From the NCBI GenBank assembly GCA_013314815.1, contig JABUEY010000009.1, positions 1 to 51,721 of the forward strand: a DNA stretch of 51,721 bases. The letters are read 5' to 3'. Origin of the DNA: Syntrophobacteraceae bacterium. GTDB taxonomy: Bacteria; Desulfobacterota; Syntrophobacteria; Syntrophobacterales; Syntrophobacteraceae. The notes beneath the pieces were generated by a model. It saw only the letters and a list, made by a program, of their open reading frames with translations, was not told the DNA's origin and did no database searches. Below, in pieces: positions 23,075 to 42,269 of the stretch (position 1 is its first letter; each line of letters opens with the position of its first letter). Made by a program: the position numbers and the translations under genes.

Positions 23075-23103
23075 GAATCATCCGGCAAACATCCATGAGC
23101 CGC

Positions 23104-23380
23104 GGACGTTGCTGCGATGGTAGGGGCGAAAGATTTTTCGCCCCTGCGGCCTTCCATTCTCCGATTTTGAAACCACGCATTGGCAGGCAGACCCAAACGG
23201 TACGTTGAACGCCGGTGTAACATCAAATCCGGTGCAGCGAGTGTGACATGACGAACAGGGTGCGGTCGAAGGATTTGCCAGGGAAACGGCCGAATCCGCC
23301 GATACCATGGAAAAGCAGTTGAGCAAATGAAAGAGCCTGGAAGACAGGATGGGTGGAGCAGGGCAATGCCGGGTGGAGAC
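23104..23380 (+). pseudogene. Dispersed repeat copy A: hairpin plus GIY-YIG nuclease relic
   Basis: It starts with GGACGTTG and carries a 10-bp hairpin AGGGGCGAAA-GATT-TTTCGCCCCT (23122-23145). The coding relic begins near 23198 (TTGGCAGGCAGACCC) and corresponds to the MAGRLNGT...VGVTSN part of small GIY-YIG proteins, but frameshifts and stops break it at once. It ends near the AGAGCCTGG...GGGTGGAGA block, which is shared with the copy at 39.9 kb. It is the most decayed of three copies. Confidence 0.6.
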
Positions 23381-32679: not shown

Positions 32680-33366
32680 GGTTCCTTTCTCCGTTTGCGT
32701 TTCGATACAAAGCGGCCAGGCTGGCAAAAGGAAGCTTATCTATATTCCTATCATGAATTCATGACGTGGGTGAAACAAACTGATCCCTTCTTTTTCAAGA
32801 AGTTTTTCTTGCGGGTTTTCTTGCGGGCAACTCCATACTCCTCGTCTCCAGCAGTTGTTCGCGCTGGACTGTTCCGCGCTCACCGGTCGTTATATTCAGG
32901 TCGAAAGGATCCGGAAATGATGGTTCTTCCGGAAAACACTGACCCAAACAGTTGTCGCCCATAAGTGGAATACACCCACAACAGCTGCCGAGATGCTTTT
33001 CCCTGGTGACGGAGGATTCGACGGTTTTCCCGGTAAATCCTCCGACCGCGCCCTGTTTGTGATGCCATACTCGCTGCACTGGATTTGATGTTACACCGAC
33101 GTTCAGCGTACCGTTGAGTCTGCCTGCCATTACGTGGTTTCAAAATCGGACAATGGCAGGCTGCAGGGGCGAAAAATCTTTCGCCCCTACCATCGCGGCA
33201 ACGTCCGGGGCAACTCCTGCAGGCACATCGAAGACAGTGTTCTCCAAATTGTACGGGGTTTGCATTGTGAGCCCGTGACGAAAGGGAAGGGGGGAAGAAA
33301 GACCTTGCCGTTCAGCAAGGACGGACCCGCCGGGAGGTGATCTTTGCGTGGACGGCGCAGGGGCAG
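32680..33366. other. Intergenic region holding repeat copy B
   Basis: The 687 bases between the TolC-like gene and the DUF6600 gene hold no intact gene. Repeat copy B (32993-33273, minus orientation) fills the middle. The remainder shows nothing I can interpret. Confidence 0.5.
32993..33273 (-). pseudogene. Dispersed repeat copy B: hairpin plus GIY-YIG nuclease relic
   Basis: The minus-strand copy is nearly identical to 39879-40162 over about 280 bases. It has the 10-bp hairpin AGGGGCGAAA-AATC-TTTCGCCCCT at 33165-33188. The relic begins with ATG at 33130 and reads MAGRLNGTLNVGVTSNPV, then QRVWHHKQGAVGGFTGK, which are GIY-YIG landmarks. It then jumps directly to ESSVTREKH, missing the segment in between. 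Translation continues into unrelated sequence. Confidence 0.7.
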
Positions 33367-35841: not shown

Positions 35842-38637
35842 ATGCGTTTGCGCACAATCCTGGTTACTTTGGCCTGCCTGGCCTTTTTTGCCACTTCGGC
35901 CGGCGGGTATTTCTATTATTCGTCGCTGAAGGAATATGCGTACAGAGACGCGTGGAGCAGGTCCATTGCCAATGCCGAAGTGATCAGCGGCCGGCTGTCC
36001 TCCATGCTGGAGGAACAGTTGAAGTGCGCCAGGGCCATGGCCGGGCTGGAACCTCTCAGTAAGGCTCTCTTGTTCAGGAATCCCGAAAGCATCTTCCATG
36101 CAAACATGGTTCTCGACCATTTCAGGGATGCTCTGAACGTGGACGTCTGTTACCTCATGGATCTCGAAGGGAACACACTGGCCTCGAGCAACCGCCATGC
36201 GCGGGAAAGTTTCGTGGGGAAAAACTATGCGTTTCGTCCTTATTTTCAGGCGGCCAGGCAGGGCAATCCCGGAATCCACATGGCAGTGGGAGTGACTTCT
36301 CGGAAGCGTGGAGCCTATCTGAGCTATCCGGTGTATGCGCAGGGAGATCCGACTCCTGTGGGTGTTGCCGTCATCAAGGCTTCTATCGAGCATCTCGAAA
36401 GTGAGTTCGAAGACATTTATGAAGGCATTGTCCTTGTGACGGACGCGCAGGGGATGGTCTTTCTTTCGACTCGGCCGGGCTGGCTCTACCTGTCGTGCTG
36501 GAAGGAATCAACGGAAGTGGATCCGGTGAATTCAGCCATGGAGACGGGGGGGGCAGTTCCATCGGGGTGGACGGGCCTTCGAAGAAGAGGGGATCAGCAG
36601 GCCGTGGACATGTCGGGGATGGAATACCTGGTCCAGCAGATCCCGATCCAAAGGTATCCAGGCTGGAATGTGGTTTACCTCACCGATCTCGAATCCCTTT
36701 CGAAAAAGCTTTCCGATCCTCTGCTCCAGGTCACCGGGTACATTATAGCCACTCTTTGCCTGTTTGTCGGATTTGCGGTCCTGTTTCTCTATGACCGGGC
36801 AAGCTACGACATCTTTCGCCGTAAGAGCGCGGAAGATGCTTTGAAGGAGAACGAACGCAAATTCAGGATGCTGGTCGAAACGATGAACGAGGGGTTGTGC
36901 GGGTGCAATGAGTACGGCGGGATCACCTATGTGAACGAGAAGCTGTGCAGGATGCTGGAATATCCGAGGGAGGAGCTTGTTGGCCGCAGCCTTGCCGAAC
37001 TCTTCGATGAACCCAGCCGGTCCCTGATCGAGGATCGCATCCGCTCCGGCAGGTCCGGCGAAACCACAACCTGCGAGATAGAATACGCATGGAAGGACGG
37101 GCGTGGCCATGCGGCGATTGTCTCGGTGTCTCCGGTTCTTGATGAAACAGGGACGTTTGCCGGAGCCATTGCGGTCTTGACCGACATCACCGATCTGAAG
37201 AAGACCGAAAGGATGCTCAAGGTATCCGAGGAGAAGTACCGGCTGATCTTCGAACATTCTCCTTTGGGAATCATGCGCTTCGATCATGAGGGAATCATCA
37301 CCGACTGCAACGAAAAACTCGTGGAGATCTGCGGTTCGTCGAAGGAGGCGCTGATTGGTTTCAGTCTGTTCGATTCGGTGAAGGATCCGGATATGCAGAA
37401 GGCCATAAGGGAATGCATCACCGGAAGAGAGGGGCTTTATGAAGGCTGCTACGAGTCTGTGACGGGCGGGAAGACGACCCCCGTGAAGGTGAATTTCAGC
37501 CCGATCCTGACCGAAGACGGCACACGCCTCGGAGGAATGGGGCTTTTCGAAGATATAACTGAACGATGGAGGGCGCAAGAGGAGTTGAGGGCGTCGGAGG
37601 AACGCCTGAAGCTGCTTTTCGAATATGCTCCCGACGCCTACTATCTGACCGACCTTCATGGAAATATCGTGGACGGAAATCAGTCGGCTGAAGCGGTGAC
37701 GGGCTATGACCGCAAGGATCTTGTAGGACAGAATATTTTCGAGATGGATCTGCTCAGGTCCGACCAGGTGTTCAAGGCCTTGAACACCCTGAAAGCGAAC
37801 GCGAAAGGGCACCCGACGGGGCCGGACGAGTTCACTTTCTTTAGGAAGAACGGTGAAGCCATCATACTGGAAATCCGTTCTTTCCCAACCAGGATCGGGG
37901 ACCGCATGCTTGTCTTGAGCATCGCCAGGGATATCACTTCCAGGAAAAAAGCCGAAGAAGCACTCATTCAATCGGAAAAGAAACTCCGGCACCTGTCCGC
38001 CCGTCTGCTCAAGGCTGAAGAGGACGAGAGGAAAAGAATTTCCAGGGAACTTCACGACAGTATCGGGTCGTCTCTGACGGCCGTGAAGTTCTACGTGGAA
38101 CGCATGCTGCTTCAGACCCGGCCGGACAGTGTTTTTTTTCAGCCGCTTACGAATCTTGTTTCCGTGGTGGAACATGCCATCGAGGAGTCGCGGAGGATCA
38201 TGACCGACCTGCGTCCCTCGATGCTGGACGACCTCGGGATCGTGTCCACCCTGGACTGGTACTGCAGGGAATTCATGAAGATCCATTCCCACATCCACAT
38301 CGAGAAGCAGATCTATGTGGATGAGGAGGTCATTCCCGAGCCCTTGAAAATCGTGATTTTCCGAATTGTCCAGGAGGCTCTCAACAACGTCGCCAAGCAC
38401 AGCGGAGCGGAATACGTTGAACTGTCGGTGGTCAAAACCGGTGAGATCCTGGAACTGACTGTCGAGGACAACGGTACGGGCTTCCATGCGGGCAATGCCA
38501 TCAACGGAGACACGCACCTGAAAGGGTTGGGACTCACGAGCATGAAGGAGCGCGTGGAACTTTCACAAGGTCGTTTTGTGCTGGAATCGGCTCCCGGCAG
38601 GGGAACCACCATAAGGGTAAGCTGGCCGATCGGCTGA
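35842..38637 (+). CDS. Orphan membrane histidine kinase: Cache sensor, three PAS domains, HisKA_3
   Basis: The 931-residue protein starts at ATG 35842 behind GAGGGAG. Membrane helices at about 5-27 and 295-317 enclose a periplasmic double-Cache sensor like that of DctB (LDHFRDALNVDVCYLMDLEGNTLASS, then GKNYAFRPYFQAARQG, GAYLSYPVY). Three PAS domains follow (about 335-455, 460-580, 585-705), each ending with a PAC-like 'ITxxxxAE' linker. The HisKA_3 domain has His738 in RKRISRELHDSIGSSLTAVK, and the HATPase domain has DLRPSMLDDLGIVSTL, QEALNNVAKHSGA and VEDNGTGF. This is a NarX/LiaS-class kinase, whose partner is normally a LuxR-type regulator. None is adjacent, so it is an orphan. The Cache ligand is probably a small organic acid or amino acid. 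Confidence 0.9.
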   Translation: MRLRTILVTLACLAFFATSAGGYFYYSSLKEYAYRDAWSRSIANAEVISGRLSSMLEEQLKCARAMAGLEPLSKALLFRNPESIFHANMVLDHFRDALNVDVCYLMDLEGNTLASSNRHARESFVGKNYAFRPYFQAARQGNPGIHMAVGVTSRKRGAYLSYPVYAQGDPTPVGVAVIKASIEHLESEFEDIYEGIVLVTDAQGMVFLSTRPGWLYLSCWKESTEVDPVNSAMETGGAVPSGWTGLRRRGDQQAVDMSGMEYLVQQIPIQRYPGWNVVYLTDLESLSKKLSDPLLQVTGYIIATLCLFVGFAVLFLYDRASYDIFRRKSAEDALKENERKFRMLVETMNEGLCGCNEYGGITYVNEKLCRMLEYPREELVGRSLAELFDEPSRSLIEDRIRSGRSGETTTCEIEYAWKDGRGHAAIVSVSPVLDETGTFAGAIAVLTDITDLKKTERMLKVSEEKYRLIFEHSPLGIMRFDHEGIITDCNEKLVEICGSSKEALIGFSLFDSVKDPDMQKAIRECITGREGLYEGCYESVTGGKTTPVKVNFSPILTEDGTRLGGMGLFEDITERWRAQEELRASEERLKLLFEYAPDAYYLTDLHGNIVDGNQSAEAVTGYDRKDLVGQNIFEMDLLRSDQVFKALNTLKANAKGHPTGPDEFTFFRKNGEAIILEIRSFPTRIGDRMLVLSIARDITSRKKAEEALIQSEKKLRHLSARLLKAEEDERKRISRELHDSIGSSLTAVKFYVERMLLQTRPDSVFFQPLTNLVSVVEHAIEESRRIMTDLRPSMLDDLGIVSTLDWYCREFMKIHSHIHIEKQIYVDEEVIPEPLKIVIFRIVQEALNNVAKHSGAEYVELSVVKTGEILELTVEDNGTGFHAGNAINGDTHLKGLGLTSMKERVELSQGRFVLESAPGRGTTIRVSWPIG

Positions 38638-38834
38638 ATGCCGTCGGATTTATTCCCTGGGGCGCTGAGGCGGCTGGTTTCCACACAAGAACATTGCTTA
38701 TGATCGCAAATAGTGGCATTTTAAGCCAATAAAAATCCCCTGCAGCGCGGTCGATTCCACCGGTCCGCATGCCTGGCGGGCCCGCAGTCCCCTGCAGGAC
38801 TTTCGAAAGACTCTAAACAGGGAGGAATATCTGC

Positions 38835-39305
38835 ATGTCTCGAACGCTCCGACTCTTGCTCACAGGGGTTATTTGTGCGGTTTTTTTCGCAGGTCCAGGA
38901 TGGGCTGCTGAAGCTTCGCCGGACTTGTCCACTGCACCGACCTCCGTATCGCCCGCCGCTCCATCCGGACCCAGTGCGGAAATTCCAAAAACATTCCATG
39001 ACTTTGGAAAGATGTCCGAAGGAAAGGATTATGTCTACGACTTTGTCATCCGGAATACGGGAACGGCGGAACTGCAGATCAAGAAAGTCTTGCCCGGCTG
39101 AGGCAGTTCCGTCGCCTACTTCGACAAGGCGATCCCTCCCGGTGGCGAGGGAAGAATATCCATCCGTTTGAATCCAAAGACCTGCCATGGAGGCGGGCAG
39201 AAGTCGGCTCTTGTCCTTTCCAACGATCCCAGGAAATCCTATTTCACCCTCGTTGTACGTGGGGAGACGGACGCCGAACGGCCAATGGCCGCAAGCGACC
39301 GATAA
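38835..39305 (+). CDS. DUF1573-domain exported protein with in-frame TGA, probable selenoprotein
   Basis: The frame starts at ATG 38835 (GGAGG upstream), meets TGA at 39099-39101 (codon 89), and then stays open for 67 codons to TAA at 39303. Read through, it gives a 156-residue protein: signal peptide (about 1-24), a Pro/Ser linker, and a DUF1573 immunoglobulin-like domain. The domain shows TFHDFGKMSEGKDYVYDFVIRN before the TGA and AIPPGGEGRISIRLN, then LVLSNDPRKSYFTLVV, after it. In this family the strand ends in a conserved '.CGCT' motif; here the sequence is PG-[TGA]-GSS, so TGA stands at the first Cys. The second Cys is Ser. Another Cys lies at 117. Sec insertion is the best reading; a nonsense mutation of TGC is the alternative. 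Confidence 0.72.
39111..39152 (+). promoter_or_regulatory. Candidate bacterial SECIS hairpins downstream of the TGA
   Basis: Two stem-loops lie in the coding sequence after the TGA (39099-39101). The first is GTCGCC (39111-39116) with GGCGAT (39128-39133), 6 bp with one G-U pair and an 11-base loop. The second is TCCCTC (39133-39138) with GAGGGA (39147-39152), a perfect 6-bp stem with loop CCGGTGGC that contains G-G near its 5' part, as SelB-binding loops do. The second loop starts 37 bases after the TGA, at the far end of the range I recall for bacterial SECIS. The two share a base and would compete. Confidence 0.35.
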
Positions 39306-39878: not shown

Positions 39879-40226
39879 GGGCTCACAATGCAAACCCCGT
39901 ACAATTTGGAGAACACTGTCTTCGATGTGCCTGCAGGAGTTGCCCCGGACGTTGCCGCGATGGTAGGGGCGAAAGATTTTTTTGGCCCCTGCAGCCTGCC
40001 ATTGTCCGATTTTGAAACCACGTAATGGCAGGCAGACTCAACGGTACGCTGAACGTCGGTGTAACATCAAATCCAGTGCAGCGAGCATGGCATCACAAAC
40101 AGGGCGCGGTCGGAGGATGTACCAGGAAAGCTGCCGAATCCGCCGTCACCAGGGAAAAGCATTTCAGCACGAGAAAGAGCCTGGAGGACAAGATGGATAG
40201 AGCAAAGCAATCCCGGGTGGAGAGAT
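39879..40226 (+). pseudogene. Dispersed repeat copy C: GIY-YIG nuclease relic
   Basis: The copy starts at GGGCTCACAATG and matches copy B in reverse orientation to about 40162; it then continues with the AGAGCCTGGAGGACA block also seen in copy A. The hairpin is damaged here (AGGGGCGAAAGATTTTTTTG). The relic begins at ATG 40025 and reads MAGRLNGTLNVGVTSNPV, QRAWHHKQGAVGG, CTRKAAESAVTREKH. GIY-YIG proteins have about 15 residues (a 'YGVxxLVxYE' segment) between the FTRK and the xAIxREK parts; those are missing. The frame continues into a REP-like palindrome, giving a hybrid tail. Confidence 0.7.
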
Positions 40227-40353: not shown

Positions 40354-40575
40354 ATGCATGAAGAGCATCGGAGTACTCGTTTGTTGGATGAACCTGAAAA
40401 AACGGAAATCCCAGGTGTTGGAGAAGACTGGTTTTCAAAGTTCAAGCGTCTTATCTTTGAGTGCGAAAGCGAATTGAATGTCATGGATGGCGGTGGTTGT
40501 CGTCGGGGAGTCCCGGTATGGACTGAAGAGGGCATTCAAATGAACGAAATGAAGATCTTGTTGAACGAGAGATGA
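40354..40575 (+). CDS. Possible small protein overlapping the next gene
   Basis: A frame open from about 40336 ends with TGA at 40573-40575, which overlaps the ATG of the reductase fusion (ATGA). From ATG 40354 it encodes 73 residues, mainly charged: HEEHRSTRLLDEPEKTEIPG, then VGEDWFSKFKRLIFECESEL, ending MNEMKILLNER. No good ribosome site is seen, and a 14-base direct repeat (TGAAGAGCACCGGA / TGAAGAGCATCGGA) lies at its start. The overlap suggests translational coupling, but the composition is not clearly coding. Confidence 0.3.
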   Translation: MHEEHRSTRLLDEPEKTEIPGVGEDWFSKFKRLIFECESELNVMDGGGCRRGVPVWTEEGIQMNEMKILLNER

Positions 40576-42269
40576 TCAATATGCCGGAAATGGAACCTTC
40601 GCGATCTGATGCCGGTGGTTTTCTGGGAACAGAAGTCGAGAAGCAGTTGAAAGCCGCTTTCGATGCGCTGCCTTTCGATATTCCTGTTTATCTTTTCACT
40701 CGAAAAGGGGAGGGCGACGCGATGGATCGTGCCGCGCGGAGCCTTGCCGGTGTTTTCCAGAAGTTGAGCAGTCGAATCAGGTTGAGGGAGTTGGATGTCG
40801 GCGACCGGGAGGGGAACAGGCTCAAGATATCCAGTTCACCCACCTTTGTGTTCGGCCCCGAGCGATACTCGATCAAGTACCTGGGAGTCCCCTTCGGCGA
40901 GGAGGGGAAGACTCTTGTGGGTGCCCTGCTCCTGTTGGGGCTGGGATCTTCCGGCCTGGGCGAAGAGTCACTGAAAATCATGAAAAGGCTCGATTCCAGG
41001 AGGGAAATCAAGGTCTTTGTGAGCCCTACCTGCCCGTACTGCCCGGAACAGGCCATCCATGCCATAAAGGCTGCCATGGAAAGACCGGACCTGGTATCCC
41101 TTGAGATCATCGACATACAGTCGAACCCTGAAATCGCGGACCGGTATTCCGCGTTCAGTGTTCCCCAGGTCTATGCCAACGATATCCTTATTGCACAGGG
41201 AGCTCAGCCGGAGGAGTTGTTCATTCTTTCCCTCGTGAAGCTCGAGCCGCAGACGGTTTTCATCCCGGAAAGCGACGCGGAAGTGGTGGAAACCGATGTG
41301 GTGATCGTTGGAGGAGGTCCCGCCGGTCTGACTGCGGGGATCTATGCCGTCCGGAGCGGGCTGAAGACCGTGGTCGTGGAGCGTGGAGCCCTGGGCGGGC
41401 AGGTCGCCACAACGCCCATCGTGGAAAACTATCCCGGCTTTACCCGTGTTCCGGGGAAGACCCTGGTCGACATCCTGGTCAGCCATGCTCTGGAATACGT
41501 GCAGATTTTTCCTGGAGAAGAAGTGGTGGATATCAGGTTCGGCGATACGATGGAGGTGTTGACAAGCAGGAGAAGGTTCGTTGCCAGGGCGGTCATTCTG
41601 GCTACGGGAGCCCGTTACAGGCACCTGGACGTTCCCGGGGAAATGCGGCTGGCCGGGCGGGGAGTCAGTTATTGCGCCACGTGTGACGGACCTCTTTTCA
41701 GGGGAAAGCGGGTGATTGTGGTGGGTGGAGGAAACAGTGCCACAACGGAAGCGCTTTATCTGCATAACATCGGGGTCGACGTCACCATCGTCCACAGGAG
41801 AGACACTCTGCGTGCCCAGGAACACCTGGTCAGGAGTGTCCAGGACAGCGGGATTCCGGTTCTGTGGAACACGGAGGTGAGGGAGATCAGGGGAGTGGAG
41901 AAGGTGAAGGAAGTGTCTGTGTACAACAATCGCACCGGGGAAACCTCATCTCTGCCCGTAGACGGCGTATTCATTGCGGTCGGATATGTCCCGACAGTGG
42001 ATCTGGCGCGGAAGATAGGAGTAGAGTTGACGCCGGACGGGTTCATCAGGCACGACAGTCGCCATCGTACGAACATCCCGGGAGTGTATTCTGCGGGGGA
42101 TGTCGAGGGGGGATACAAGCAGATCGTCACGGCCATGGGCCAGGGTACGGAGGCGGCCCTGTCCGTGTTCGAAGACCTGCGAAACCCTTACTGGCTCGAT
42201 GAAGATGGATGGGTCGGGAGCCTGGTGATAAAGAAACGGGGCAATGATCTTTCATCGAGGGGGGCTTGA
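40572..42269 (+). CDS. Glutaredoxin-like/thioredoxin reductase fusion flavoprotein
   Basis: The 565-residue protein starts at ATG 40572 or 40581. Residues 1-230 are two thioredoxin-fold repeats like AhpF N-domain or archaeal protein disulfide oxidoreductase. The first repeat has lost its CxxC (SSSPTFVFG), and the second keeps VSPTCPYCPEQA. Residues 240-555 are a thioredoxin reductase with FAD motif DVVIVGGGPAGLTAGIYAVR, active-site VSYCATCDGPLF, NADPH motif VIVVGGGNSATTEALYL and C-terminal VYSAGDVEGGYKQIVTAMGQG. It moves electrons from NAD(P)H through FAD to the CPYC site and then to a partner. A peroxiredoxin is not adjacent. The nearest redox candidate is the DUF1573 gene 1.3 kb upstream. 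Confidence 0.9.
   Translation: MINMPEMEPSRSDAGGFLGTEVEKQLKAAFDALPFDIPVYLFTRKGEGDAMDRAARSLAGVFQKLSSRIRLRELDVGDREGNRLKISSSPTFVFGPERYSIKYLGVPFGEEGKTLVGALLLLGLGSSGLGEESLKIMKRLDSRREIKVFVSPTCPYCPEQAIHAIKAAMERPDLVSLEIIDIQSNPEIADRYSAFSVPQVYANDILIAQGAQPEELFILSLVKLEPQTVFIPESDAEVVETDVVIVGGGPAGLTAGIYAVRSGLKTVVVERGALGGQVATTPIVENYPGFTRVPGKTLVDILVSHALEYVQIFPGEEVVDIRFGDTMEVLTSRRRFVARAVILATGARYRHLDVPGEMRLAGRGVSYCATCDGPLFRGKRVIVVGGGNSATTEALYLHNIGVDVTIVHRRDTLRAQEHLVRSVQDSGIPVLWNTEVREIRGVEKVKEVSVYNNRTGETSSLPVDGVFIAVGYVPTVDLARKIGVELTPDGFIRHDSRHRTNIPGVYSAGDVEGGYKQIVTAMGQGTEAALSVFEDLRNPYWLDEDGWVGSLVIKKRGNDLSSRGA

Follow-up and report, generated by a model that had tools for sequence, protein, structure and literature searches.

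The gene at positions 38835-39305 of the window (the whole 51,721-nt stretch of DNA that was analysed, from a Syntrophobacteraceae bacterium) is best explained as coding for a small exported selenoprotein, and we consider it likely that its selenocysteine, Sec89, is resolved by a relocated cysteine, Cys117. The gene apparently belongs to an undescribed single-domain branch of the OS_HP2/DUF1573 family, in which the partner Cys lies elsewhere in the fold. The features of the gene, all on the plus strand, are as follows.

38820-38826, plus strand: Shine-Dalgarno-like GGGAGGA, 8 nt upstream of the ATG, from sequence
38835-39305, plus strand: gene for a short OS_HP2-like/DUF1573 selenoprotein; with Sec at the TGA it has 156 codons
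38835-38909, plus strand: probable Sec-type signal peptide (MSRTLRLLLTGVICAVFFAGPGWAA), from sequence and homologues
38982-39266, plus strand: DUF1573 (PF07610) domain, seven-stranded Ig/ASH-like β-sandwich, from profile match and predicted structure
39099-39101, plus strand: TGA codon 89, selenocysteine on comparative evidence
39105-39107, plus strand: codon 91 AGT (Ser), where the catalogued UGC motif has its second Cys, which this gene has lost
39111-39133, plus strand: proximal hairpin (arms 39111-39117 and 39127-39133), probable SECIS, apical loop 16 nt past TGA, synonymous covariation
39134-39151, plus strand: distal hairpin CCCTCCC-GGT-GG.C.GAGGG, second SECIS-like element, apical GGU 39 nt past TGA, weaker covariation
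39183-39185, plus strand: codon 117 TGC (Cys), predicted partner of Sec89; Cys kept in 33 of 36 short homologues

Reading frame and decoding of the UGA codon

Codon 89 (39099-39101) is the sole in-frame TGA between the ATG at 38835 and the TAA at 39303-39305. The 156-codon frame shows no further stop and no frame damage, in agreement with an earlier note on this DNA that described a lone TGA, a later TAA and an otherwise intact frame. That note also saw family sequence on either side of the TGA. The PF07610 profile matches residues 50-144 with 57.2 bits when Cys is placed at codon 89 (gathering cut-off 26.1), and the DUF1573 domain therefore spans the TGA. Secretion, another of its proposals, is supported by the signal-peptide-like N-terminus; most short homologues have a lipobox Cys there instead of the Sec-type signal peptide of this gene. 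The product is probably an exported protein. Other TGAs in the window were read through and judged by eye and by third-position G+C, and no convincing further candidate was found.

We compared 90 homologous domains from 60 relatives' genomes. A conserved in-frame UGA, or a Cys aligned with it, is what is expected of homologues at a Sec site, and the aligned codon is TGA in 80 domains. The remaining ten have Cys (7), Trp (1), Thr (1) or Ser (1). All five DUF1573 domains of the source genome, that is, this gene and four other OS_HP2-like genes, carry TGA at the Sec codon. The region downstream of the TGA changes little at the amino acid level: among close pairs whose dS is usable, dN is 0.03–0.20 and dS is 0.4–1.2 (dN 0.028 and dS 0.79 for L005/L007, dN 0.075 and dS 0.40 for L046/L008), while dS is saturated in several further pairs. 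These values indicate that the region 3' of the TGA is under purifying selection. A pseudogene, a sequencing error or an ordinary stop yielding an 88-residue protein would fit the automatic call, which is a short truncated ORF, and the source genome is a draft assembly of 245 contigs. However, the TGA stands at the same codon in the 80 homologous domains, including those of the single-contig assemblies G004 and G015, and a pattern scan of genome contigs finds it in the isolate Desulforhabdus sp. TSK, which excludes an assembly error. The strong purifying selection, the synonymous covariation of the proximal hairpin (see below) and the fact that an end at residue 88 would leave only three of the seven strands also stand against such a reading. 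Comparative data in effect refute it, and we give it an extremely low probability.

Bacterial selenoproteins are expected together with SelA, SelB, SelD and tRNA-Sec, and the earlier note held that a genome without this machinery would speak against Sec. The source genome contains all of selA, selB, selC and selD. The tRNA-Sec has anticodon TCA (UCA) and scores 73.4 bits, selB scores 382 bits, and selA scores 511.5 bits, split across two contig ends. There are two selD genes, one TGA-free (contig C98) and one with an in-frame TGA (L115, G000 contig C33:38009-38932), which makes SelD itself a probable selenoprotein. None of the contrary observations listed in the earlier note was made where they could be checked.

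Contig C208 of G000 also encodes a tRNA-Sec-shaped tRNA with the Cys anticodon GCA (L032:1020-1108). Downstream of it are a second selB (L105:1483-3450) and, judged by eye, an MvhD-like gene. The tRNA and the second selB are a selC*/selB* locus, present besides the normal selC and selB elsewhere; PMC7609411 refers this locus type to Mukai et al. 2017. A selC* tRNA-Cys with a UCA anticodon exists in some Desulfobacterales (PMC7609411). With a second tRNA-Sec-like gene adjoining a second selB, a special tRNA might insert Cys or some other amino acid at UGA. The anticodon here, however, is GCA and not the UCA of a UGA reader, so this tRNA reads UGC/UGU, and translation of UGA as Cys through selC* was rejected. 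Among matches over the tRNA-Sec cut-off the UCA anticodon occurs only in tRNA-Sec itself, and the SelD gene of the same genome has a TGA as well. We consider decoding by a special tRNA very unlikely.

One short homologue, L052 (G025 contig C91), has TGG (Trp) at the Sec site and retains Cys117. This could be taken to favor a genome-wide use of TGA for Trp or Gly. Yet the neighboring histidine kinase ends at an ordinary TGA stop (38635-38637), and readthrough in the family is limited to the Sec site. Genome-wide recoding is contradicted by stop usage, and its probability is next to nothing. L052 is instead a possible recent loss of Sec through one base change. Together with L055 and L056, which have Cys at the site and no partner, it shows that Sec can be dispensed with in some lineages. 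For this gene, we regard it as nearly certain from the comparative evidence that UGA at codon 89 is incorporated as Sec.

Hairpins downstream of the UGA codon

Two adjoining hairpins occupy nucleotides 10–32 and 33–50 after the TGA in the window, where the earlier note had proposed folding the RNA after 39099. In the window itself the hairpins fold with an energy that is ordinary compared with shuffles (z -0.51), and an Rfam scan for SECIS gave no match, so the case for an RNA element rests on covariation. A bacterial SECIS is expected just past the UGA, and the covarying hairpin lies there, with its loop 16 nt after the UGA. In 73 distinct sequences, 85% of cells in the proximal stem are paired, compared with 77% in shuffles and 31–46% in slid registers. 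Double-change cells number 47 in this stem and 21.6 in shuffles, and 0 of 1000 shuffles reach the observed value. The key pair is formed by the third positions of the Val93 and Ala99 codons, both of which are fourfold-degenerate. Only sequences with both amino acids were taken, which leaves both bases free. In these, 28 of 32 combinations are Watson-Crick (GC 12, CG 10, TA 5, AT 1) against a shuffle mean of 10.4; 0 of 100,000 shuffles reach this value, a count that is not a probability because the shuffles ignore relatedness. Three pair types in quantity would be hard to get without selection on the RNA.

The distal hairpin is encoded mostly by the conserved IPPGGEG. In homologues where Glu105 is replaced by Val (GTG), the paired Pro101 base is changed to A or G. 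There is no clear covariation excess for this hairpin within the short forms alone, and we therefore regard the proximal hairpin as the probable SECIS; the distal hairpin is a possible one.

The short branch and its partner cysteine

The earlier note presented this gene as a probable new selenoprotein. At the level of the family this novelty falls, because DUF1573/OS_HP2 is already catalogued and has an NCBIfam model (NF041425). The GOS survey (PMC2398784) names OS_HP2, with motif UxC, among selenoprotein families, and two reviews (PMC9312934, PMC13188914) do so for DUF1573, with motif UGC. Both reviews refer to a 2007 paper on the Olavius symbiont; according to PMC9312934, the family was first reported there, by Zhang and Gladyshev, from the Olavius algarvensis Delta1 symbiont. 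This gene shares with catalogued OS_HP2 the domain, the Sec position and a host in the Sec-rich Thermodesulfobacteriota. It differs in the motif, which is UGS and not UGC or UxC, and its second Cys is at +28. The earlier note had placed the TGA at the first Cys of a CGC motif. Sec does stand at that position, but the second Cys is absent; the local motif UGSS has Ser there, so that only the first Cys of CGC is replaced by Sec. The protein is also a single domain of 156 residues, while the local long OS_HP2 form has about 350. On NF041425 this gene scores 82.3 bits, below the curated cut-off of 100 bits. Seven other short forms (C117, no Cys at +2) score 74–93 bits, the UGC+C117 form L058 scores 74 bits and a long form 118 bits.

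The other copies in the source genome and in relatives differ in how the cysteines are placed. The long OS_HP2 paralogues L069 and L074 of the source genome share the Sec codon and the hairpins with this gene, but have UGC, Phe/Tyr at 117 and ~200 extra C-terminal residues. L058, from the source genome, and L059, L061 and L063 have the same short architecture, Sec and Cys117, and differ in also keeping Cys at +2. L055, L056 and L091 are short as well but have TGC instead of TGA, and Cys117 is lost in two of these three. In general, long forms (about 350 residues) have UGC; nearly all of them have Tyr or Phe at position 117, and none has Cys there. Short forms (about 140–210 residues) mostly have Ser, Thr or a similar residue at +2 and Cys at 117. 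Across the 80 Sec domains, 49 have Cys at +2 only (48 long, 1 short), 27 have Cys117 only, four have both and none has neither. Three homologues are without either Cys (L055, L056 and L026), and all three have lost Sec; since L055 and L056 are sisters, this amounts to about two events. Because every Sec domain keeps at least one Cys and the homologues with neither have lost Sec, the resolving Cys appears to have been relocated. Cys117, which the earlier note suggested as a possible partner, is thus borne out as a conserved and Sec-coupled feature of the short branch, and we hold the coupling of Sec with Cys117 to be highly probable from the alignment.

In the tree, the group with Cys at +2 only forms one side of a branch (99/98). 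The three label states need 4 changes, compared with 26.3 when labels are shuffled, on a tree that has few alignment columns and no fixed root position. Among relatives' genomes, the UGC form is found across the class and outside it too, whereas the short form was encountered only in the family of the window; the short Sec form with Cys117 is present in 17 of these genomes. A scan of genome contigs from 84,980 species with a DNA pattern that requires TGA and the Cys117 codon matched only Syntrophobacteraceae and other deltaproteobacterial assemblies. As far as these searches reach, the short branch is found only in Syntrophobacteraceae-type bacteria. As the root is not fixed, we infer the direction of change, UGC to C117, from the wide spread of UGC and the family-restricted short form. 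The relocation probably passed through the surviving UGC+C117 intermediates.

Fold, proposed chemistry and significance

The AlphaFold2 model is a seven-stranded sandwich with pLDDT 87.8. Sec89 is in the C-D loop between strands three and four, and Cys117 is in the E-F loop between strands five and six. Ig-type folds have the C-D and E-F loops at one end of the sandwich, with strand three next to strand six. From this topology U89 and C117 are predicted to be near each other. Structure matches are PapD-like/ASH domains (HYDIN, CEP192) and 2qsv, an uncharacterised P. gingivalis protein with the same Ig-like fold (TM 0.69, normalised by query). Unlike this protein, these matches have no Sec, and identity is about 20%.

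We propose that the SelB and tRNA-Sec(UCA) of the genome insert Sec at UGA codon 89, directed by the downstream hairpin or hairpins. The product would be a single exported Ig/ASH-like DUF1573 domain, with Sec ending strand C and Cys117 before strand F. In the periplasm, the Sec selenolate would react with a substrate that is oxidised or electrophilic, and Cys117 would resolve the adduct as an internal U89-C117 selenenylsulfide, standing in for the +2 Cys (UGC) of the longer, catalogued OS_HP2 proteins. This branch would have arisen in the Syntrophobacteraceae lineage by relocation of the partner Cys, probably via the UGC+C117 form, which is still extant, in the source genome among others. The selenenylsulfide is predicted chemistry; it and an extracytoplasmic redox role are suggested by the conserved and coupled Sec/Cys117 pair. 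Instead of redox catalysis, Sec and Cys could serve to bind a metal or metalloid or to form a structural bond. A small β-sandwich without a known catalytic fold, with PapD-like/ASH domains and 2qsv as its nearest solved relatives, fits such a role, and a two-ligand site would also account for a coupled Sec/Cys pair. However, the alignment shows no other conserved ligand residues (His, Met) beside this pair, and Sec is seldom used for structural bonds. Metal binding or a structural bond is in our judgement rather improbable, and redox catalysis by the Sec89/Cys117 pair is the reading we favor with reasonable confidence.

The gene has a PAS histidine kinase as its upstream neighbor. Downstream, at 40572-42269 of the window, a thioredoxin/glutaredoxin-like domain is fused to a thioredoxin reductase-like domain. 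This is the only neighbor shared with the closest orthologue; in G004, a homologue lies downstream of the short selenoprotein gene. It has no obvious signal sequence, and for this reason we set it aside and do not claim it as a partner. Comparison of gene neighborhoods of homologues gave no conserved operon and no substrate clue. The region is flanked by near-identical (95–100%) inverted repeat copies at 32986-33274 and 39879-40169, about 6.6 kb apart, with another at 23099-23379. Parts of this element are present at about 50 places across the genome, which defines it as a dispersed intergenic repeat family.

All nine short forms tested score under the NF041425 cut-off. Curated models can therefore miss short forms; NF041425 at its present cut-off can overlook a set of selenoproteins, and short-form genes risk annotation as truncated proteins. 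The gene is also a clear case in which synonymous covariation backs a bacterial SECIS. Relocation of a resolving Cys in a selenoprotein is documented here with its start, its intermediate and its end point each present in living genomes, so that the role of the partner Cys is testable by comparison of paralogues. On balance, we lean towards a lineage-specific branch in which selection moved the resolving Cys from +2 to the +28 loop, with the two-Cys intermediate alive in the same genomes, and in which several differently wired copies per cell would constitute an exported Sec-based redox set of these syntrophic or sulfate-reducing bacteria.
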